From NCBI RefSeq assembly GCF_000429725.1, contig NZ_AUCK01000024.1, positions 1-64,000 of the forward strand: a stretch of DNA of 64,000 bases, in the 5' to 3' direction. This DNA is from Alkalicoccus chagannorensis DSM 18086. Its GTDB lineage: Bacteria > Bacillota > Bacilli > Bacillales > Salisediminibacteriaceae. A program made the translations under genes and the position numbers. The notes beneath the pieces were generated by a model. That model was not told the origin of the DNA, searched no databases, and worked only from the letters and a program-made list of their open reading frames with translations. Positions 703 to 56,377 of the stretch are shown here, piece by piece; the stretch's first letter is position 1; each line of letters opens with the position of its first letter.

Positions 703-721
703 CTGCTGTGCTGTTATAGAA

Positions 722-861
722 CAAAAGCGCAGAGCGCCTTTTGGTCGGAACGGCGTGTGGAAGCGCTGCAAGCTTTTTGAGGGAAGAAAACGTTCTTTGT
801 TTCTTCCCGAGCAGCGCATGGAGCCGCCGTTACACTGTATGAAAACTTATACATTCTTATA
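722..861 (+). repeat. Family A structured repeat, copy A1
   Basis: This is the reference copy of a repeat of about 140 bp. In order it holds a 5' hairpin (CAAAAG ... CTTTTG), the box GGTCGGAACGGCG, nested stems ACGGCG/CGCCGT, GCGCTGC/GCAGCGC and GGGAAGAAA/TTTCTTCCC, and a tail reading TGTATGAAAACTTATACA then TTCTTATA. Copy A2 follows six bases later in the same orientation. It has no coding content. Confidence 0.8.
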
Positions 862-867
862 CTGGAA

Positions 868-998
868 CAAAAGCGCAGAGCGCCTTTTGGTCGGAACGGC
901 GTGTACCGCAGGTTCTTTGAGGGAAGCATAGGTTCTTCATGCTTCCCGCGCACCGGGCTTCGCCGTCGTCCTACATGAAAACTTATCCATTTCTATCA
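868..998 (+). repeat. Family A structured repeat, copy A2
   Basis: This lies in tandem with A1. The innermost stem changed on both sides to GGGAAGCAT/ATGCTTCCC, keeping the pairing, and the outer ACGGCG/CGCCGT stem is kept. The 3' tail is diverged. It ends 30 bp from the ecsB stop codon. Confidence 0.75.
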
Positions 999-1028
999 TC
1001 TAAAAGAAATGTGGTGCCTTCCCCGCCA

Positions 1029-2246
1029 CTAGCTTTTCTTGTTCCTTTTCATTACTTCGGGGAGCCGCTTCTGTATTCCATACAGATAGATGATTCCTGC
1101 TCCTGCCGCAGCGGCTGTCATGTTCTCCCAGGAAGGCAGGGCGGCTGCCAGAAAGAACAGCGTCTGCACGATACCGGCCCGGAGCATCCAGTACTGCATG
1201 CCGGCGTCCTTCCCTTCCGGAGGCACCGGATACAGCGACACCATATCCATCGTATCGAAGTGCCTGTGCAGCGTTTCCAGCTGCAGCAGCGTCATAAAGG
1301 CGAACAATGCGGCAGCCACCGCACTTCCCCACCACGGTTCCACTGCTGTCACAAAAAGAATCCCGATGAAGGTCAGCCTCGCATAAATACCGAGATAGTC
1401 CCCTGCACGAAGAAAAGCTCTGCCGAACAAGTAACGGTACACCGATCCCGGCCGGAACGGAGGACGACGGAGCACAAACTGAAGCCAGTTCCGACGCTTC
1501 ACGTGCTGCTTCAAATGCGGCACGTCGGTGAAATTGTTCGCAATTCGGAAAAACATCCTGACTGTGTTCATTTCAACGGCAATCAGGCGTCCCCATGCGA
1601 GCGGGTACCGGATGGGACGGAACCAGGCGAACCAGGCTGCTGCAAAGACAGCCGCTGCTGCTGCAGACAGAACGAGGGACTGACTGAAAACGGCCCAGGC
1701 AGCAGCCCCGTTGAGCAGCAGTCTGCCTGCTTTGTGCAGCGTCACCTGCCGATCATCAGGCAGCCGCATCTCCTGAAACCCTGCTGCGAGATTCCACAGC
1801 TTGAGAAGAGAAAGAGACCCGAGCACAAGCATAAACGTACCAAAGTCCCCGGCGATCCTGTCCAGGAACAGAGGCAGAAGAACAAACATTGCTAAAAACA
1901 ACCAGAATGTCTCCATCATCCAGCTGTAGCGGAAGGAAGCCCGAAAGTACGATTTCATCCTGCTTTCCATCGGCAGGAGAAAGACGAGATCTGCTTCCTT
2001 CAAAAATGTACGTACTCTTCCCCTCGTCAACAAGAGCGTAAAAAGCAGCGTAAAGAACAGGACAGCAGGAAATGCCTCCGGAAGCCACTCCAAAAATTCG
2101 CCGTAATAAATACTCCCGAATAAAAAAAGGAGATACAGCGTAAAAACAAAGCCGCTGTTGGCAATCAGGCGGAGGTATTTTACAGCAAGGGTCCAGTATT
2201 CCCGCACCCGGCTGGACCAGAGAGATGCAGCATCACGCATCGTCAT
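1029..2246 (-). CDS. ecsB: EcsB, membrane subunit of the Ecs ABC transporter
   Basis: This 405-residue polytopic membrane protein is the permease partner of EcsA. In B. subtilis the Ecs transporter affects protein secretion, regulated intramembrane proteolysis (RasP-dependent steps) and competence; its substrate is unsettled. Many hydrophobic segments run from about residue 30 to the C-terminus, interrupted by basic loops, as in the EcsB family (about 408 residues in B. subtilis). The ATG at 2246 lies inside the end of ecsA, a 14-bp overlap that implies translational coupling. No ecsC homologue follows; family A repeats lie downstream. Confidence 0.9.
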   Translation of the reverse strand: MTMRDAASLWSSRVREYWTLAVKYLRLIANSGFVFTLYLLFLFGSIYYGEFLEWLPEAFPAVLFFTLLFTLLLTRGRVRTFLKEADLVFLLPMESRMKSYFRASFRYSWMMETFWLFLAMFVLLPLFLDRIAGDFGTFMLVLGSLSLLKLWNLAAGFQEMRLPDDRQVTLHKAGRLLLNGAAAWAVFSQSLVLSAAAAAVFAAAWFAWFRPIRYPLAWGRLIAVEMNTVRMFFRIANNFTDVPHLKQHVKRRNWLQFVLRRPPFRPGSVYRYLFGRAFLRAGDYLGIYARLTFIGILFVTAVEPWWGSAVAAALFAFMTLLQLETLHRHFDTMDMVSLYPVPPEGKDAGMQYWMLRAGIVQTLFFLAAALPSWENMTAAAAGAGIIYLYGIQKRLPEVMKRNKKS

Positions 2247-3759: not shown

Positions 3760-4845
3760 ATGACGACCGTGTATAATTTCAATGCCGGACCGGGCCCGAT
3801 CCCCGACCCGGTTTTAAAACAGGCACAAACCGAAATGTTCAGTTTTGAACAAACGGGAGCAGCAGTGATGGAACTGAGCCACCGCAGCGCTCCTTACGAA
3901 AAAATCCATTTTCAGGCGATGAAGCAGATCCGAACGATTCTCGACGTACCCGACGACTTTGACATTCTTTTTTTACAGGGAGGGGCTACGCTCCAGTTCT
4001 CCATGACCGCACAGAACTTCCTTCGACCAGAACAGCGGGCTGCCTTCGTGCTGAGCGGTTCATGGTCGGAAAAAGCAGAGAAAGAAGCTTCCGCGTTCGG
4101 CAGCACGACCATTCTCGCATCGACAAAAGAATCTCAGTACCGCTCCGTCCCGGAGATCGACCTTTCCTCGGCACCGGAGGACACTGCCTACGTACACCTC
4201 ACATCCAATAACACCATTTTCGGCACCCAGCTGCAGCAGTTTCCAAAGAAAGCAGCAGCGCCGGTCATTGTGGACATGTCCAGCGACATATTGAGCCGAC
4301 GCGTTCCGTGGAGCGATGTCGATTTCGCCTATGCAGGTGCCCAGAAAAACGCCGGCATGGCTGGAGTAACGATTGTGATTGCCAGAAAATCACTCCTCGC
4401 TTCTGGAAGTGACGCTCTGCCACCTTCCATTTCCTATAAACAGCACGCTGATAAAGACTCTCTGTATCACACGCCTCCGACCGGGGCCGTCTACATGACA
4501 AAACTCGTGACAGACTGGATTCTGGCTGAAGGAGGAATCGATGCGATTGCAGAGGCCGCTTCTAAGAAAGCGGAAGCGCTCTATGCCGCCATCGATCAAT
4601 CCGATGGGTTTTATCGTGGACATGCTGACGCGGGCTCCCGCTCATCCATGAATGTCACGTTCCGCCTCCCGGATGAAGACCTGGAAAAGCAGTTTCTGCA
4701 GGAAGCAGCTGACGCAGGATTTCTCGGCCTGAACGGGCACCGGAGTGTCGGTGGATGCCGTGCCTCTCTGTACAATGCCGTACCGTTCCATCATGTAGAA
4801 GTACTCATCGATTTTATGGAGAAATTCCGCCATCGGCACAGCTGA
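3760..4845 (+). CDS. serC: SerC, phosphoserine aminotransferase
   Basis: SerC converts 3-phosphohydroxypyruvate and glutamate to phosphoserine in serine synthesis. The family's diagnostic N-terminus (YNFNAGPGP) is present, and the PLP-binding lysine is K196 in AGAQKNAG. The 361 residues match the family. GAGGAGG lies nine bases before the ATG. No other serine-pathway gene is adjacent. A strong hairpin terminator follows 26 bp after the stop. Confidence 0.96.
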   Translation: MTTVYNFNAGPGPIPDPVLKQAQTEMFSFEQTGAAVMELSHRSAPYEKIHFQAMKQIRTILDVPDDFDILFLQGGATLQFSMTAQNFLRPEQRAAFVLSGSWSEKAEKEASAFGSTTILASTKESQYRSVPEIDLSSAPEDTAYVHLTSNNTIFGTQLQQFPKKAAAPVIVDMSSDILSRRVPWSDVDFAYAGAQKNAGMAGVTIVIARKSLLASGSDALPPSISYKQHADKDSLYHTPPTGAVYMTKLVTDWILAEGGIDAIAEAASKKAEALYAAIDQSDGFYRGHADAGSRSSMNVTFRLPDEDLEKQFLQEAADAGFLGLNGHRSVGGCRASLYNAVPFHHVEVLIDFMEKFRHRHS

Positions 4846-4870
4846 TCCCTCTTGGATTGCCTGTCCAATG

Positions 4871-4912
4871 GAAAGAGCCGCCTCATTCCGATGAGAGGCG
4901 GCTCTTTCTGGT
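4871..4912 (+). terminator. serC terminator
   Basis: GAAAGAGCCGCCTC (4871-4884) pairs perfectly with 4895-4908, followed by a T-rich run. It is a rho-independent terminator for serC. Confidence 0.85.
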
Positions 4913-5053
4913 TCTTTCGATTCCATCAGATTCTGCAAGACGTACATACGAATCGCAGCGTTCCGGTAATCCGCCTCAACCGGGTGGGACCGGCCATCGT
5001 CGGGCAGCAGCACCTTCGCTCTTTCCGAACAGCAGATGTAGAGACTTCCACCT

Positions 5054-5187
5054 TTTGATCGGAACGGCGTGCGGAGTCACCGTCTCCCTCGATGAGAACG
5101 TATATTCTCTCCTTCTATGAAAAACGTTGATTTTCTTCATCGACTAGAAAAACCAGGGCGCAGCAGGCGTCGTCTCCTGCTGCTTTT
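5054..5187 (+). repeat. Decayed family A copy followed by a terminator-like hairpin
   Basis: At 5054-5118 a worn family A copy keeps CTTTTGATCGGAACGGCGTG and a TATGAAAA tail but has lost the central hairpin. At 5160-5187 GCAGCAGG pairs with CCTGCTGC before four T residues. No gene lies in 4913-5362; the rest is unremarkable AT-richer sequence. Confidence 0.45.
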
Positions 5188-6954: not shown

Positions 6955-7255
6955 GGAAGAGAGCGATGCCGTCGGCAGAACCATCTGCCGCATGGTATGC
7001 TCTTCAAACGTAAAGATACCTCCGGTTCTGTAACGACTCGGTCGTTCCCGCAGAACTTGGAGGTATCTTTTTTATTTGATTTCCCTGTCTGCGTTCTTCT
7101 GCACGGAGACGGGGCGTCTGCTCGTCCAACGGTCAGCGGAAGTCCTGTCCGCAGCAGGCGGCTGCCCCGCGGGACAGTCAACCTTCCTGATACGCAGGGC
7201 CCTCACCAAAACACGGTGAGGGCCCCTTCCATACTGTTTTTCTTCCCGGTATCGA
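6955..7255 (-). mobile_element. Decayed IS1182-type end
   Basis: The order of parts matches 1-343: remnant N-terminal codons (minus strand 7010 leftward, TFEEHTMRQMVLP with the ATG changed to ACG), the paired RBS hairpin (arms 7012-7030 and 7051-7070), leader, terminator-like hairpin (7198-7227) and a worn terminus near 7245. No intact reading frame remains. Both hairpins are well kept although the coding part is dead. Confidence 0.6.
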
Positions 7256-16406: not shown

Positions 16407-16518
16407 CGTTGTCACCTCTTTCCTTCTATTTTATCACGAAAATGTGTTCCCGCGCGACGGCTCCTGCCAAACAAAAGCCACCTTTTCCTGCGGGAACACT
16501 TGAAGATGCAGAGATAGA

Positions 16519-16659
16519 CCAAAAAGAGCGAAGCTCCTTTTGGTCGGAACGGTGCGCGGAATCGCTGCAAGCTTTTCGAGGGAAGAAAAAGGTTCTGTTT
16601 CTTCCCGTGCAGCGCATGGAGTCTCCGGCACCTTGTATGAAAACTTATACATTCTTATA
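16519..16659 (+). repeat. Family A structured repeat, copy A3
   Basis: The 5' hairpin changed to CCAAAAAGAGC/GCTCCTTTTGG, keeping pairing. The middle stem CGCTGCA/TGCAGCG, the inner GGGAAGAAA/TTTCTTCCC, and an outer GGTGC/GCACC are all intact. The tail is full. It lies in a 780-bp gene-free stretch next to families C and B. Confidence 0.78.
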
Positions 16660-16925: not shown

Positions 16926-17054
16926 TGGAAGGGAAGGATCCTTGTATCAACAAGGAACAGGAACAGCGCCTTTTATTTAAAGCTGCCTTGAAAATAGAAC
17001 ATAGCAGTCTATGTTCATCTATCATGGTGCAACGAGGTTGCATGAGTGTCTCTG

Positions 17055-17155
17055 TGCAAGCTTGTTGTTGTTATTTGATGAAAGCAGCAATAGGCGGCGA
17101 CGCTCAATGGATAAGCGCCGAAAGCGGATGAAATCAACAAAGCACGATAACATAG
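17055..17155 (+). repeat. Family B repeat, copy B1
   Basis: It shares with 36966-37081 the blocks TTTGATGAAAGCAGC, ATAGGCGGCGACGCTCAA, AGCGGATGAAATCAACAA and CGATAACATAG. B1 is about 15 bp shorter in the middle. Each copy lies directly beyond the terminator of a minus-strand gene. Confidence 0.7.
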
Positions 17156-17162
17156 CCATTCT

Positions 17163-20032: not shown

Positions 20033-20147
20033 GCCGCGTGACGCAGACTTTCAGAGAAAAAGAGTTCTCCTTTTTCCCGCGAAGCGCGCGAATCTGCCGT
20101 CTTTCCGCTATGACATCTTTCACTTCTTACGCACTTTAACCAAACGG

Positions 20148-21543: not shown

Positions 21544-21826
21544 ATCTACATTTTTATGAAGGAAGACGTCAGTAGGGGCCGCTCCCCGTCAAGAGTGAAT
21601 GCCTTTGTTTTTTCGGCACGCCGTTCCAATCAAAACGGGGATCCATGCCTTTGATCTGCTGCGCCTGATTCTAGTTCAGAACCCCCAGGAAGCAGCAAAT
21701 GTCGTCCGTTCCATGTTGTCTCTTCTCACTGCACAACAAGCTGCATGCAAAAACAGGAGGACTCGTCCTTTTCCAGCGGGCGGTCATCTGCTACAATGAT
21801 AGGAAACATACGTTTGGAGGATCACG
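21544..21826. other. Intergenic DNA with a family A fragment (21610-21637, minus strand)
   Basis: No gene is seen. A short minus-strand piece reads TTTTGATTGGAACGGCGTGC, the conserved box of family A, without the hairpins. A TACAAT -10-like hexamer near 21793 may serve the exonuclease gene. Confidence 0.35.
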
Positions 21827-22507: not shown

Positions 22508-22750
22508 GAGGCTGGGACAACATCGTTTTCCTGCACGTAAAAAACGCTTTCGATGACCCAAGTGGGATCGTCGAAAGCGTTTTGTTTTTACATAACGTTC
22601 ACTGCCAGGAGTGCAAACCCGAGTTCCTGTTTTACCTTCGCTTTGCCTCTCACCGACATGCTGGTGACTTCAGAAATCCAACAACGGCTTCCACGTCGGT
22701 TTTACGCCGATGGTAGATGGTTCCCGGTTTCTCTTCCGAAAGCACCGGTA
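22508..22750 (-). mobile_element. IS1182-type element fragment, transposase 3' end
   Basis: It starts with the terminal repeat GAGGCTGGGACAA (22508-22520), followed by sequence nearly identical to 55581-55660, including a hairpin around GAAAGCG. Transposase codons follow. The other end is lost. It lies between the exonuclease gene and the 3' end of the leucine operon. Confidence 0.7.
22588..22750 (-). pseudogene. C-terminal remnant of IS1182-family transposase
   Basis: Reading leftward the peptide is IYHRRKTDVEAVVGFLK, then a frameshift with lost residues, then SVRGKAKVKQELGFALLAVN and a stop at 22588-22590. These blocks match the C-terminus of IS1182 transposases as I remember it. The gene is clearly dead. 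Confidence 0.7.
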
Positions 22751-35195: not shown

Positions 35196-35306
35196 ATAAA
35201 ACAACGCAGGAAAGTGATCACTTCCTCCAGGGCATATTCCCGCTTCCAAGGTATGCTGGTCAATGCAGATCTATTCTTATTTCAGCAGCCAGATCTCTCT
35301 CTTGGA

Positions 35307-35425
35307 TCAAAATCGCGGAACGGGTCGTGCTGCAGGTTTTTAAAGGGAAAAACGGGTGATTGCCCTTCCCGGGCGGTGCACGAAGCCGCCGTCACCCTAT
35401 ATGAAAACTTCTACATTCCTATCAT
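35307..35425 (+). repeat. Family A repeat, copy A4 (5'-truncated)
   Basis: It lacks the 5' hairpin and has a weakened inner stem (GGGAA ... TTCCC). It keeps GCCGCCGTCACC and the TATGAAAACTTCTACATTCCTAT tail. It is in tandem with A5, spaced five bases. Confidence 0.65.
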
Positions 35426-35429
35426 GGAA

Positions 35430-35568
35430 CAAAAGCGCAGAGCGCCTTTTGGTCGGAACGGTGTGCGGAAGCGCTGCAAGCTTTCCGAGGGAAGAAAAAG
35501 GTTCTGTTTCTTCCCGTGCAGCGCATGGAGCCGCCGTCACCTTGTATGAAAACTTATACATTCTTATA
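35430..35568 (+). repeat. Family A structured repeat, copy A5
   Basis: This is a full copy with GCGCTGCA/TGCAGCGC and GGGAAGAAA/TTTCTTCCC stems intact; the outer stem shifted to GGTG/CACC. It is nearly identical to A1 in the 5' hairpin. A bidirectional terminator follows ten bases later. Confidence 0.78.
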
Positions 35569-35577
35569 ATGCAAGAA

Positions 35578-35625
35578 AACGCCGCCCCCTTCACCAGCGC
35601 CAGGTGAGGGGGGCGGCGTTTTTAA
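35578..35625. terminator. Bidirectional terminator between the cyd operon and chrA
   Basis: AACGCCGCCCCCTTCACC (35578-35595) pairs with 35603-35620 with one mismatch, then TTTTT. On the minus strand it is preceded by A-rich sequence, so it can serve both directions. Confidence 0.8.
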
Positions 35626-35680: not shown

Positions 35681-36856
35681 TCATAAAAGAGCGAGAAGGA
35701 GCCCCCCAAGGACACCGACAAGGACAATCCGCCAAGCCGGCTGCTTCCAGTGATAGAGCAGCGTGAACATCAATACGGCAAACGCGAGATCCACCGGTGT
35801 TTCTACTGCTGTCGTAAAAATCGGATCATAGAAAGCAGCGAGCAGCACACCGATCACCGCCGCGTTCACGCCCATCAGCGCAGCACGCATCGGGGCATAC
35901 TGCCGAAGCAGCATCCAGAACGGGAGGGCTCCGATAATAAGGAGAAAGGCCGGCAGGAAAATAGCTGCTGTGGCGGTTACTGCACCTGGAATCCCATCCG
36001 CCGCCATCCCGAGATAGCTTGCGAACGTAAAAAGCGGTCCTGGTACAGCCTGGGCAGCTCCGTAGCCGGCTAAAAATGTATCTTCTGTCACCAGTCCGGC
36101 AGGAACTACTTCCCGCTCGAGCATCGGAAGCACGACGTGCCCGCCGCCGAAAACGAGTGCGCCTGCTCGATAAAAGCTGTCGAAGATCTGCACATGCAGG
36201 CTGTCCGCAAACGCCCGCAGCAGCGGAAGTGCGCCTAGGAGAAGGAAGAATATCGTGAGGCTGCCGGCACCGATTTTCTTCGATAATGCTGCCGGCATCC
36301 CGCTTCCGGTCTCCGGCTTTTCATGCCGATACAGCAGCCATCCGGCTGCACCACCGGCGAGAATGACAACGACCTGCATCCACGCGGACGGAAGCAGCAG
36401 CAGCAGGATCAGTGCGGCAGCGGCGATCGTGACACGCGGGCGGTCCGGAGCGAGTGATTTCCCCATACCGAGAACAGCATGGGCTACTACGGCTACGGCT
36501 ACAAGTTTGAGGCCGTCGATGATACCAGCTTCGATCCAGCCCTGCTGCTGGAAAAAAACAGCGGCGGCCATCAAAAGCAGGACGGAAGGCATCGTAAAGC
36601 CGAGAAAGGAAATAAAGCCTCCGACAAGCCCTCCGCGGGTAATGCCAATGCCGATGCCGACCTGACTGGAAGCCGGACCGGGAAGGAACTGACAGAGAGC
36701 CACTAAATCTGCATACTGCCTGTCGCTGACCCACTGCCTTCGTTCAACGTACTCATGCCGGAAGTAGCCGAGGTGCGCTACTGGGCCACCGAACGATGTC
36801 AGACCGAGCCGCAGGGAAATCAAAAATATTTCTGTTAAACGCTGTATGTAGGACAC
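35681..36856 (-). CDS. chrA: ChrA-type chromate/anion transporter
   Basis: This 391-residue membrane protein is a long-chain CHR protein made of two homologous halves. Each half begins with an FGGP-like motif (SFGGPVAHLGYF near residue 25, VFGGGHVVLPMLE near residue 235) and contains a QxxPGP motif (QFLPGPASSQ and QAVPGPLFTF). Members export chromate or related anions. Start GTG 36856 follows AAGGAGGT at proper spacing; the frame continues to 36880. Confidence 0.9.
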   Translation of the reverse strand: MSYIQRLTEIFLISLRLGLTSFGGPVAHLGYFRHEYVERRQWVSDRQYADLVALCQFLPGPASSQVGIGIGITRGGLVGGFISFLGFTMPSVLLLMAAAVFFQQQGWIEAGIIDGLKLVAVAVVAHAVLGMGKSLAPDRPRVTIAAAALILLLLLPSAWMQVVVILAGGAAGWLLYRHEKPETGSGMPAALSKKIGAGSLTIFFLLLGALPLLRAFADSLHVQIFDSFYRAGALVFGGGHVVLPMLEREVVPAGLVTEDTFLAGYGAAQAVPGPLFTFASYLGMAADGIPGAVTATAAIFLPAFLLIIGALPFWMLLRQYAPMRAALMGVNAAVIGVLLAAFYDPIFTTAVETPVDLAFAVLMFTLLYHWKQPAWRIVLVGVLGGLLLALL

Positions 36857-36965
36857 AAAGTTGACCTCCTTCTTGTTCACTGGGGATCCATTCTGGATGA
36901 AGCTGCGTCCTTATTTGTTATTTACTGTCTGCCTTCGCCATTCGTTTGTAAAACGAAAGCGCTGT

Positions 36966-37081
36966 TCAAGCTTGATGTAGTTCTTTGATGAAAGCAGCGA
37001 TAGGCGGCGACGCTCAAGGGACTAGCCCCGGAGCAAGCGTCCGGCGCAAGCGGATGAAATCAACAACGAACGATAACATAG
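36966..37081 (+). repeat. Family B repeat, copy B2
   Basis: It matches B1 (17055-17155) over both ends, with an extra GGAGCAAGCGTCCGG-type stretch in the middle that is itself partly self-complementary. It lies between chrA and the malL terminator. Confidence 0.7.
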
Positions 37082-37095
37082 ACAAAACGAAACAA

Positions 37096-41532: not shown

Positions 41533-41538
41533 CGTAGA

Positions 41539-41664
41539 CAAAAGCTTAGAGTCTCTTTTGGCCGGAAAGCGTGTGCTGCTGGTTTTTAAAGGGAAGAACA
41601 CGTTTTTCGTTCTTCCCTTGGAGTGTAAAACTGCCTCCATCCTGCTGTAACACCTTATCCGTCC
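41539..41664 (+). repeat. Family A repeat, copy A6 (diverged)
   Basis: The inner stem changed to GGGAAGAAC/GTTCTTCCC, keeping pairing. The 5' hairpin keeps CAAAAG/CTTTTG. The outer stem and tail are decayed. Confidence 0.6.
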
Positions 41665-41908
41665 CTACGAAGTAAAAAGGCAGCTCGATGCCAGCCGTTG
41701 GAATCGGCGCCGGAACTTTCAGGCGCCGCTCCAGCTGCTGGCTTTTTTTCATCATTCCTTTTGTACCGGAGCCGTCCGCCTCCACGCCTCGACCCGGGAC
41801 ACCTTTTCATGTTGAAAACACACTGCTGTAAGAGGAAGGGGTATGGACGTTTACAGTCGTTTTTATAGGAAGCTCTGTGATTGTTTATTGTTGATAATGA
41901 CAGAAAAC
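41665..41908. other. Gene-free segment between repeats A6 and C3
   Basis: I see no supported gene. A stretch around 41752-41790 containing CGGAGCCGTC has a weak echo at 51484-51520, which may be another old repeat. Confidence 0.3.
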
Positions 41909-52216: not shown

Positions 52217-52313
52217 AAATAACCTGCAAAGCCCTTGCCCCTTCCTTGGCAGGCTGTTAAAGTCATCAGTGTTGGACGAAACGAAAGCAAGAAAAAAGGA
52301 GGTTCATGACATC

Positions 52314-53411
52314 ATGAACAAAGTATTTACACTAACATCCATTAAACAACTAGGTTTCACTGTTGCTGCCGCAGGTGCAGTTCTTTTCGCAGGTGGCACA
52401 GCAGCTGGGGCAGAAGAAAATAAAGATTTCGGTGAAAACCTACTCCACGAAGGCAAATCCCACGCTAACGTAGTAGAGCTGGAAGAGCTTCTCGGCGAAA
52501 AAGGTTACTTTGACGAAGCGCCTGACGCACAGTACACCGGAGCTACAGCACAGGCTGTCCAGGCATTCCAAGAAGATAACGGCCTGATTGTAGACGGTCT
52601 TGCCGGCGTTCAGACAACCGGCGCTCTTGCTGAACTGCAGAACGGCGATAACGGATTTCTCGTAGAAGAACTACAGCAGGATCTTGCATCCCTTGGACTT
52701 TATGACTTCGACATTGACGGCCTTTTCGGTCCAATCACTGAAGAAGCATTGACAACGTTCCAGAGCAACCACGGTCTTGAAGCTGACGGAGTAGCAGATG
52801 CTGCAACGTACGCTGCACTGCACGATGTTACCCGTTACGGTTCTTCTGAGTCTGTACAGGAAGAAGCACCAGCTGAAGAAGCACCAGCTGAAGAAGCACC
52901 AGCTGAAGAACAGGCTGCCGCTGAAGAGCAGGTTGCTGCTGAAGAACAGGCTGCTGCTGAAGAACAGGCTGCCGCTGAAGAGCAGGCTGCCGCTGAAGAG
53001 CAGGCTGCTGCTGAAGAACAGGCTGCTGCTGAAGAGCAGGCTGCTGCTGAAGAGCAGGCTGCTGCTGAAGAGCAGGCTGCTGCTGAAGAACAGACTTCAA
53101 GCGAACAGCCGGACGGTCAGACTATCACAATGGAAGCAACCGCTTATACAGCGAACTGCACGGGCTGCACCGGCGTTACTGCAACAGGCATCGACTTGAA
53201 TGCGAACCCGAACCAGAGCGTCGTAGCAGTTGACCCTAGCGTGATTCCACTCGGTTCTACAGTCTACGTTGAAGGCTATGGCGAAGCTGTTGCCGGCGAC
53301 ACAGGCGGTGCAATCAACGGAAACCGCATCGATCTTTACATGCAGTCTAACCAAGAAGCAGTAAACTTCGGTCGTCAGACAATTGACGTAACGGTTGTCG
53401 ACACACCGTAA
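52314..53411 (+). CDS. Secreted cell-wall protein: two peptidoglycan-binding domains, acidic repeats, 3D domain
   Basis: This 365-residue protein has a signal peptide (residues 1-34, ending AAGA), two PG-binding-1 domains (about 45-105 and 110-175), a low-complexity linker and a C-terminal 3D domain (about 280-365). The linker has three APAEE units and ten QAAAEE-type hexads. The 3D domain keeps the three aspartates in VDPSVIPLGS, GDTGGAI and RIDLYM. Such 3D domains are found in lytic transglycosylases of the YocH/Sps/Rpf type, so it probably cleaves peptidoglycan. AAAGGAGG precedes the ATG. The linker may span an acidic wall. Confidence 0.88.
   Translation: MNKVFTLTSIKQLGFTVAAAGAVLFAGGTAAGAEENKDFGENLLHEGKSHANVVELEELLGEKGYFDEAPDAQYTGATAQAVQAFQEDNGLIVDGLAGVQTTGALAELQNGDNGFLVEELQQDLASLGLYDFDIDGLFGPITEEALTTFQSNHGLEADGVADAATYAALHDVTRYGSSESVQEEAPAEEAPAEEAPAEEQAAAEEQVAAEEQAAAEEQAAAEEQAAAEEQAAAEEQAAAEEQAAAEEQAAAEEQAAAEEQTSSEQPDGQTITMEATAYTANCTGCTGVTATGIDLNANPNQSVVAVDPSVIPLGSTVYVEGYGEAVAGDTGGAINGNRIDLYMQSNQEAVNFGRQTIDVTVVDTP
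52861..53092 (+). repeat. In-frame tandem repeats (3 x 15 bp, then 10 x 18 bp)
   Basis: Three GAAGAAGCACCAGCT-type units are followed by ten near-identical 18-bp units encoding QAAAEE, one of them QVAAEE. Differences between units are almost all silent third-base changes. Copy number is likely to vary between strains. Confidence 0.9.
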
Positions 53412-55356: not shown

Positions 55357-55442
55357 TATGAATCATAGAAGGGGCTCTGCGCCTCTTCCAGCAGGGTCCT
55401 GCCACAGCTGGCGCAGGCACCAACTGCTTCCTTATTCCAGAC

Positions 55443-55569
55443 CAAAAGCGCCTTTTTGTCGGAACGTCGTGTAACGCAAGCTTTACGAGGGAAGAAAGAG
55501 GTTTTCTTTCTTCCCGTGCAGTGCAAGAAGCCGACGTCTTCTTGTATGAGAACTTATACATTCCTATAT
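55443..55569 (+). repeat. Family A structured repeat, copy A7
   Basis: The outer stem changed on both sides to ACGTCG/CGACGT and the inner stem to GGGAAGAAAG/CTTTCTTCCC. Both remain fully paired. It ends about ten bases from the IS1182-type terminus at 55580. Confidence 0.75.
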
Positions 55570-55579
55570 TTTGAAAAGA

Positions 55580-56202
55580 GGAGGCTGGGACAACATCGTT
55601 CTCCAGTACGTAAAAAACGCTTTCGACGATCCAGATGGGGTCATCGAAAGCGTTCTGTTTGTCAGAAATGATAACGAATCTGTTCCATGACCGCTGTTTT
55701 TCATCATGAAAAAGCGAATTGCGTATAGGCGCAACAAAAATACTTCCATCATCATTTTCGGATGGTGGGGAGGCCGTCCACTGAAAGCATCAAAGGCTTC
55801 TTCCGGTATGAATGCCATGAGGTCGTTCACCGCAAATGGCCCATCATGTTTTTGCCATTGAAAGGACAATTCCACCGGCAGCACCAGTTGATTTCAGTTG
55901 TACTCTTCAAGCCTGAGGACACCTACAGTTTTGTTATGACTTGGTCGTTCTAACTGAACCTGAAGGTCTTTTTTTATGGAGAAATCAAGAACGTTAGGTC
56001 TCTATCAGGTACTGATCCTGAAAAGGCAAGCCCGCGGAAAAAGCAAGTGCTGAAGATGCCCCGTAGCCGTTTTTGCGTCGGTTAACTGAAGCATTGCCCG
56101 CGGCAAGCGATTGTCATTGGAAGGATTAACCCCCCTCATACAGAAAGCCCCCACCAAAAGTAGTAAGGGATTCCTTTTTATTTTCGTTTTGTCCCAGCCT
56201 CC
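55580..56202 (-). mobile_element. Internally deleted IS1182-type element with both termini
   Basis: The termini GGAGGCTGGGACAA (55580-55593) and its complement (56189-56202) enclose only 623 bp. Between them lie the 3' end (shared with 22508-22590), a fragment of transposase N-terminus and the leader with worn hairpins. An intact element would be about 1.6-1.9 kb, so most of the transposase is deleted. It could be mobilised only in trans. Confidence 0.7.
55681..55916 (-). pseudogene. IS1182-family transposase N-terminal fragment
   Basis: Reading leftward from 55916 the peptide is LEEYN, stop, NQLVLPVELSFQWQKHD, then FAVNDLMAFIPEEAFD and HHPKMMMEVFLL, matching the IS1182 N-terminus. The start codon is lost, an in-frame stop lies six codons in, and the frame breaks near 55740. 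Confidence 0.75.
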
Positions 56203-56377
56203 TTCCGTCTTCAGGAGGTTGATTGGTTCACGTAACAATCGTCTACCGCGGACAGGTCACATCCGTGGCCTTCCTTGATGAACGTGTATCGATGCCTATC
56301 TCCCGATCAAGAGGCCTGCTTTCTCGGCTTCGTGAAAGCTTGCTTCTCCAGCCCCTTTTCCCCGGAGCGGCAGCAGC

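Follow-up and report, generated by a model that had tools for sequence, protein, structure and literature searches.

A structured dispersed repeat beside terminator-like hairpins in Alkalicoccus chagannorensis, possibly a non-autonomous mobile DNA element

REP/BIME sequences with RAYT and the derivatives of IS200/IS605 carry hairpins, have no clear terminal inverted repeats and may move as single strands, while integron cassettes possess one hairpin site (attC) per unit and stand in head-to-tail arrays with one orientation. Group IIC introns insert at intrinsic terminators (PMC4424553) and also at attC sites. The DNA element IS1272 (TnSha1) targets hairpins irrespective of their sequence, and several of these targets have been shown to act as terminators; it cuts inside the stem and removes part of the hairpin, occurs in either orientation, is bounded by inverted repeats and carries a transposase (PMC4923244). 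In Bacillus cereus, bcr1 and bcr2-bcr18 are small multi-copy intergenic repeats, called MITE-like and mobile, and their mobility has been tied to a TTTAT motif (PMC6542083, PMC3446304). BOX, RUP, SPRITE and other stem-loop repeats are interspersed, structured and intergenic, and B. halodurans harbors the 74 bp repeat Bhal-1 (PMC2267715, PMC10969869).

The DNA analyzed here is a 64,000-nt window of Alkalicoccus chagannorensis DSM 18086 (genome G000), in which a dispersed repeat with nested hairpins, family A, had been proposed. Our tentative view is that family A, with units of ~130-175 nt, is a mobile but non-autonomous DNA element whose insertion sites lie next to terminator-like hairpins, and we describe its fold, its placement and orientation, its tandem spacing, the lack of a close match in sister species and the filled and empty orthologous sites, all of which were observed directly. 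Like group IIC introns, family A is placed at terminator-type hairpins and not at one fixed target sequence, and it shares with them the insertion beside such hairpins in a preferred orientation. Unlike those introns, which are ribozymes encoding a reverse transcriptase, it is ~130-175 nt long, gives no group II match and has a core without a strand-specific RNA signature. RF00029 matched only the intron of one locus (L122); since none of the elements scanned gave a group II match, a group II intron or its relic was rejected. Unlike IS1272, family A leaves the hairpin whole, lies ~8-9 nt beyond it and has mostly one orientation. The nearest named repeat, compared by description only, is bcr1, for which the descriptions consulted revealed no link to terminators. 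With REP/BIME and IS200/IS605 derivatives the family shares hairpins and the lack of clear terminal inverted repeats, but it is not associated with Y1 genes. It may work like integron cassettes, with one hairpin site per unit, head-to-tail order and one orientation, although no gene is seen in the unit. Finally, it resembles BOX, RUP and SPRITE, again compared by description only, in being interspersed, structured and intergenic.

The view that no described family has these features agrees with the lack of an Rfam match at gathering score and of any description among the top-listed open-licence papers. Rfam gave 0 matches at gathering score in the window. When 18 element-bearing loci were searched at E up to 1 or 5, no match overlapping an element attained that score; three weak sub-threshold matches lie beside or at the edges of elements (L077 1631-1704, L128 1422-1485, L131 1651-1724). 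A known RNA family was rejected for want of a gathering-score match in these sequences.

All seven copies claimed in the window were recovered by nhmmer and by a covariance model (CM), every one on the + strand (Table 1). Three weaker matches in the window may be worn copies or chance. The stems named for the family are present, namely the 5' hairpin CAAAAGCGC-AAA-GCGC-CTTTTG, the outer ACGGCG/CGCCGT, the inner GGGAAGAAA/TTTCTTCCC and the tail hairpin, and the paired changes quoted for them can be read in the sequences of the copies. Read on the other strand, P1 is a hairpin followed by TTTTGTTC, which is the left terminus of the element. Right ends resembling that of copy 1 occur in other genera (TTATACATTCTTATC / TTATACTTTCTTATC).

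Table 1. Family A copies, their parts and adjoining features in the 64-kb window
Feature	Position	Strand	Evidence or remark
Copy 1, full length, first in tandem pair	719-861	+	nhmmer 132.6 bits; CM 173.1 bits
Copy 1, P1 (5' hairpin)	722-743	+	fold prediction; 95.6% of cells paired in A2
Copy 1, P2 outer stem, 5' strand ACGGCG	750-755	+	pairs with 825-830
Copy 1, P3 middle stem, 5' strand	763-769	+	pairs with 811-817
Copy 1, P4 inner hairpin GGGAAGAAA/TTTCTTCCC	781-808	+	97.2% of cells paired in A2
Copy 1, P3 middle stem, 3' strand	811-817	+	
Copy 1, P2 outer stem, 3' strand CGCCGT	825-830	+	
Copy 1, right end: tail hairpin TGTATGAAAACTTATACA, terminal TTCTTATA	836-861	+	
Copy 2, tandem, shorter subtype, P4 GGGAAGCAT/ATGCTTCCC	865-999	+	nhmmer 66.3 bits; CM 118.6 bits
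Short weak hairpin between copy 2 and ecsB	1011-1029	.	under hairpin score cut
ecsB	1029-2246	-	EcsB by Pfam
Weak match	5030-5112		CM
Copy	16518-16658	+	CM 143.2 bits; right end without strong hairpin
Weak match	20039-20125		nhmmer
Weak match	21550-21655		nhmmer
Copy without P1 part (5' part lost), first in tandem pair	35302-35426	+	CM 62.7 bits
Copy, second in pair after 35302-35426	35427-35570	+	CM 169.6 bits
Strong hairpin (stem of 18 bp) between AAAA and TTTTT	35580-35618	.	
Chromate transporter gene	35681-36880	-	PF02417
Copy, diverged	41536-41672	+	CM 78.9 bits
Copy with ACGTCG/CGACGT outer stem	55440-55568	+	CM 113.2 bits

The plan of the element consists of the P1 hairpin, one long interrupted hairpin (P2, P3, P4) and a tail hairpin. 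The covariation claimed for it is strong across genomes and only modest within G000, where an alignment of 40 copies (39 distinct) gave 7/40 pairs and 12 cells changed on both sides, against 2.7 pairs and 3.0 cells in shuffles and up to 7 pairs and at most 10 cells in slid controls. RNAalifold, applied to the same 40 rows, returned a consensus with only 19 pairs, 3 of them changed on both sides, and missed the outer stem. The covariance model that had been suggested as a check was built and matched relatives, and across genomes the pair changes stood far above the slid controls. In A5 (54 copies, 30 from G000), 29/40 pairs and 271 cells changed on both sides, against at most 73 cells when slid, and 91.0% of cells were paired (slid 38.0-51.0%). 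In A6 (41 copies from relatives, including genera outside model building) the corresponding figures were 36/40 pairs, 358 cells against at most 64, and 88.7% paired (slid 39.1-45.1%). Both alignments lean toward the structure because they were made to the covariance model, and copies from one genome are not independent in them. The tail helix is weak outside G000, with 73.6% of its cells paired in A6. This cross-genome covariation in A5 and A6 backs the proposal of selection on the fold.

The fold is conserved beyond G000, in other genera and families of the order. The first CM, built from 40 copies, matched 5/60 other genomes (G032, G039, G011, G003, G001); G032 belongs to the same family as G000, G003 has a single diverged copy, and the two partial matches of G001 are possibly not the same element. 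A second CM, with no more than 8 candidates scored per genome, matched 13/397 genomes of the order including G000 (E up to 1e-4). These 13 genomes represent 9/135 genera in five families, and the relatives are diverged and mostly multi-copy. A class-wide sample of 398 genomes yielded a match in G000 only. Among named genomes, a pattern scan gave 12 stretches, of which 11 belong to Salipaludibacillus neizhouensis DSM 19794 and 1 to Alkalihalobacillus bogoriensis. No match was obtained in plasmids with three queries, in phages with one query or in viral contigs with one exact pattern. Shortened forms without the middle part (P3-P4) were seen at L159 12235-12344, L187 8155-8251 and L201 6939-7041, and perhaps stem from deletion between direct repeats GCGGAGCC. 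Another direct repeat (TTTATGAAGGACACTTTTGCTTCG...) lies in L188 of G039, between family A copies 4067-4234 and 4832-4974.

The fold had been proposed to act "as RNA or extruded DNA", and the present data narrow this choice, with caution, toward DNA. A fold kept as RNA on one strand is expected to show G-U above A-C pairs. In the core helices P2-P4 the G-U:A-C ratio is 24:22 of 1211 cells in A5, 14:19 of 942 in A6 (where 8/19 A-C cells belong to one seldom-formed pair) and 20:20 of 927 in A2. Outside the core the balance is different, which limits the argument: P1 gave 7:21 in A5 and 5:22 in A6, with 17 and 21 A-C cells, respectively, contributed by a single pair whose bulge occupies another register, and the tail gave 39:12 (27 G-U from one pair) and 15:12. 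As a control, small and biased, 7 tRNAs showed 9 G-U and 0 A-C. RNA folding energy has no strand preference, the + strand being lower in 15/28 representatives. Folded as DNA, the window copy reaches z -5.25 and -4.32 on its two strands, and two relatives are weaker (-2.2, -2.3 and -1.4, -1.3). Since G-U and A-C are about equal in the core and neither strand is preferred, the sequence comparison favors, with caution, a fold that acts at the DNA level.

The G000 assembly comprises 3.52 Mb in 38 contigs, the window being part of one of them (C19, NZ_AUCK01000024.1), and the unit measures ~143 nt in this genome. At a cut-off of E 0.01 the searched stretches hold at least 96 matches; at least 79 of these reach 75 bits, and they occupy 61 places. 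The counts are lower bounds for the stretches searched, since the number of candidates per search was limited. Near-identical copies occupy many places, and the 61 places are arranged as 44 singles, 16 doubles and 1 triple. The G000 consensus starts GAACAAAAGCGC and ends TTCCTATCAT, with no real terminal inverted repeat at its ends (GAACAAAAGC versus ATAGGAATGT). No pair of left and right ends enclosing a gene, as expected of an autonomous partner, was seen when single ends in the searched stretches were inspected by eye, and three scans of 501, 101 and 361 bases listed no promoter in the right end (candidate CTGTAT-17-TATCAT).

The original prediction did not mention placement, tandem spacing, gain and loss between species, or relatives. 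The right end of the element often meets an A-run and then a hairpin; seen from the opposite strand, this arrangement resembles an intrinsic terminator whose T-run is directed toward the element. Counted per place, a strong hairpin adjoins 36/61 right ends versus 12/60 left ends, and a hairpin with an A-run 29/61 versus 3/60 (p 7e-8); 25/61 right ends are without a strong hairpin by the score used. The stem starts 11, 12 or 13 nt past the conserved TTCYTAT in 25/36 right-end hairpins. Counted per copy, 25/79 copies have another copy at their right, and among the remaining 54 right flanks a strong hairpin was scored in 33/54, against 12/78 left flanks and 48/318 random places, and a hairpin with an A-run in 26/54, against 3/78 and 3/318 (Fisher 8e-22 and 1e-9 for the per-copy flank comparison). 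The left ends are the better control, because the random places came from anywhere in the searched stretches and are mostly coding. In tandem copies the next P1 stem starts at 12 nt in 14/17 measurable cases, so that tandem units stand behind the element's own P1 as elements stand behind host hairpins. With neighbor genes called by a simple ORF rule, the gene reads toward the element at 45/57 right-hand places (p 1e-5) and at 28/56 left-hand places; the right neighbor reads away at 12/57. On the reading preferred here, the host hairpins would be functional terminators.

The clearest example in the window is copy 35427-35570 with hairpin 35580-35618, a putative terminator that sits between this copy and the adjoining chromate transporter gene; 12 nt separate the base of its stem from the conserved end of the element. 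A consensus terminator scanner listed neither this hairpin nor P1; its tail rule may fail because both stems can extend into A and T runs. The same scanner listed the weak hairpin before ecsB as terminator-like on the + strand. A comparable arrangement is found in G039 and G150, which belong to another family than G000. Among their 40 distinct copies, 24 have an aligned right end, with an A-run in 20/24, a hairpin in 14/24 and both in 12/24, and the stem starts at 11-15 nt in 11/14 hairpins.

Further evidence comes from the comparison of related genomes. A blastn search with the G000 consensus found nothing in 7 sister genomes, among them two that are ~80% complete, and a stretch of G007 syntenic to the neighbors of copies 35302-35570 contains a hairpin and no copy (by eye). 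The aligned blocks of G039 and G150 are mostly 86-97% alike; the comparison leaves out sites 1, 7 and 8 as not cleanly readable, the pair L196/L197, which did not align, and the pairs L194/L195, L198/L199 and L200/L201. Site 5 holds a copy in G150 but not in G039, and site 6 shows the reverse. At site 3 a copy stands to the left of a hairpin in G039, and a reversed copy that lacks the core stands to the right of this hairpin in G150 (by eye). Both G039 copies of site 2, the second being a shortened form, are absent from G150, where the hairpin by the second is kept, and the copy of site 4 is common to both genomes. The adjoining hairpin is intact at the filled sites 3, 5 and 6; an insertion of the IS1182/IS1272 type was rejected on the undeleted hairpin beside these sites.

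These orthologous sites bear on the nature of the element. It could be that family A does not move at present and is a structured 3'-end RNA or an insulator working beside terminators, as its conserved fold, its position beside terminator-like hairpins and its terminator-like P1 would allow. We consider this the least probable explanation, given the patchy distribution (13/397 genomes), the near-identical copies in many places, the tandem arrays, the orthologous sites without the element and the core without strand asymmetry. A more serious, though still unlikely, alternative is an ordinary MITE, cut and pasted by a TA-targeting transposase and favored at terminators since T-runs often end in TA and insertion there does little harm. 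Family A does have MITE-like traits, being short, multi-copy and variable between species at orthologous sites. Moreover, TA is found at most G039/G150 junctions, as expected from such a transposase: it begins the element in 22/24 copies, and in 17/24 a TA occurs no more than 6 nt from the right end. Sites 3 and 6 carry a single TA when empty and TA at both junctions when filled, a pattern that fits both a 2-nt duplication and an element-borne TA, and the ends are weakly inverted in the G039 group (left TAAGAA, right TTCTTA, 6 nt only). In G000, however, there is neither a real terminal inverted repeat nor a constant dinucleotide at the right junctions; the right junction of site 5 is TG; and a MITE does not require conserved nested internal stems. 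To our knowledge, no TA-targeting transposase fixes orientation and distance to a hairpin, which also counts against this explanation.

The preferred orientation, together with the release of RNA by intrinsic termination near the insertion point, would also suit a retroelement that moves by reverse transcription of an RNA copy and its joining to the 3' ends left by transcript termination, for example by group IIC intron machinery. Truncation among the 96 matches affects the left end in 12 and the right end in 6, small counts that lean the same way, and G000 has one group II intron reverse transcriptase gene. Group IIC introns themselves insert at terminators (PMC4424553). Against this stand the core without a G-U excess, the fold without strand preference and the lack of a group II intron match over the elements scanned. 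Furthermore, reverse transcriptase does not track the element (17/28 genomes; absent from G039, G003 and G022), and G039, rich in copies, has no RVT_1 match. On balance a retroelement seems improbable.

Y1 transposases do not track the element either (22/28 genomes; 0 in G390 and G003). The sole Y1 match of G000 is at L031, where no family A copy was found in the 3357-base locus, and derivation from an IS605 element of G000 was rejected since no copy lies at this only Y1 locus. Around ~1500-2950, L031 contains an IS605-type element with a Y1 transposase match and a tnpB-like reading frame (by eye), which lies downstream of an apparent nifU-like gene with a terminator. In relatives, whether or not they have the element, frames of ~180-310 aa give weak matches to Y1 transposase; these frames resemble RAYT in size only.

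Returning to a non-autonomous mobile DNA element as the tentatively preferred reading, a typical insertion read on the other strand would consist of the host hairpin with its T-run, ~8-9 nt, the element and, at its far end, the element's own P1 hairpin followed by TTTTGTTC. An enzyme would recognize single-stranded DNA made up of a hairpin and ~8 nt, at the host site as well as at P1, and would join the element at the recognized site. P1 would then be the counterpart of an integron cassette's attachment site, and old copies would become targets for new ones. The enzyme would bind the P2-P3-P4 hairpin, which would be conserved as folded DNA. One type of site (hairpin plus ~8 nt) in both host and element is the simplest way to cover five observed traits: the set distance, the preferred orientation, the lack of clear terminal repeats, the head-to-tail tandems and the terminator-like P1. 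A bolder form of this scheme, which we find rather doubtful, would make the copies gene-less "terminator cassettes", recognized as folded single-stranded DNA and attached at a constant distance of ~8 nt past the hairpins of intrinsic terminators. Their own terminator mimic would be the attachment site, host terminators would provide attachment sites genome-wide, and the whole would constitute a new class of mobile DNA.

If the scheme is true, intrinsic terminators are attachment sites of a DNA element, its mobility is tied to DNA folding or to transcription ends, and terminators offer a natural, sequence-independent and gene-sparing landing site. Family A also provides a case in which selection on a fold at the DNA level can be tested against selection at the RNA level, as well as a set of insertions next to known genes in Bacillus relatives from alkaline and saline habitats.

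Other repeats were noticed in the course of this work. A second dispersed repeat of ~350 bp, with blocks 75-83% alike, occurs in the window at 1-350, 6965-7072 and 55868-56209, and on other contigs the family A copies C14:87305 and C21:54522 both abut the same point of this repeat (by eye). An 80-bp repeat (GAGGCTGGGACAAC...) at 22508-22587 and 55581-55660 contains a terminator-like hairpin, and one of its copies begins ~12 nt past a family A copy; the repeat next to copy 55440, examined as an internal empty site, was uninformative. A two-copy repeat with blocks 87-88% alike is found at 17052-17158 and 36962-37084, and an 18-bp tandem repeat at 52848-53130 lies inside the ORF 52269-53411.
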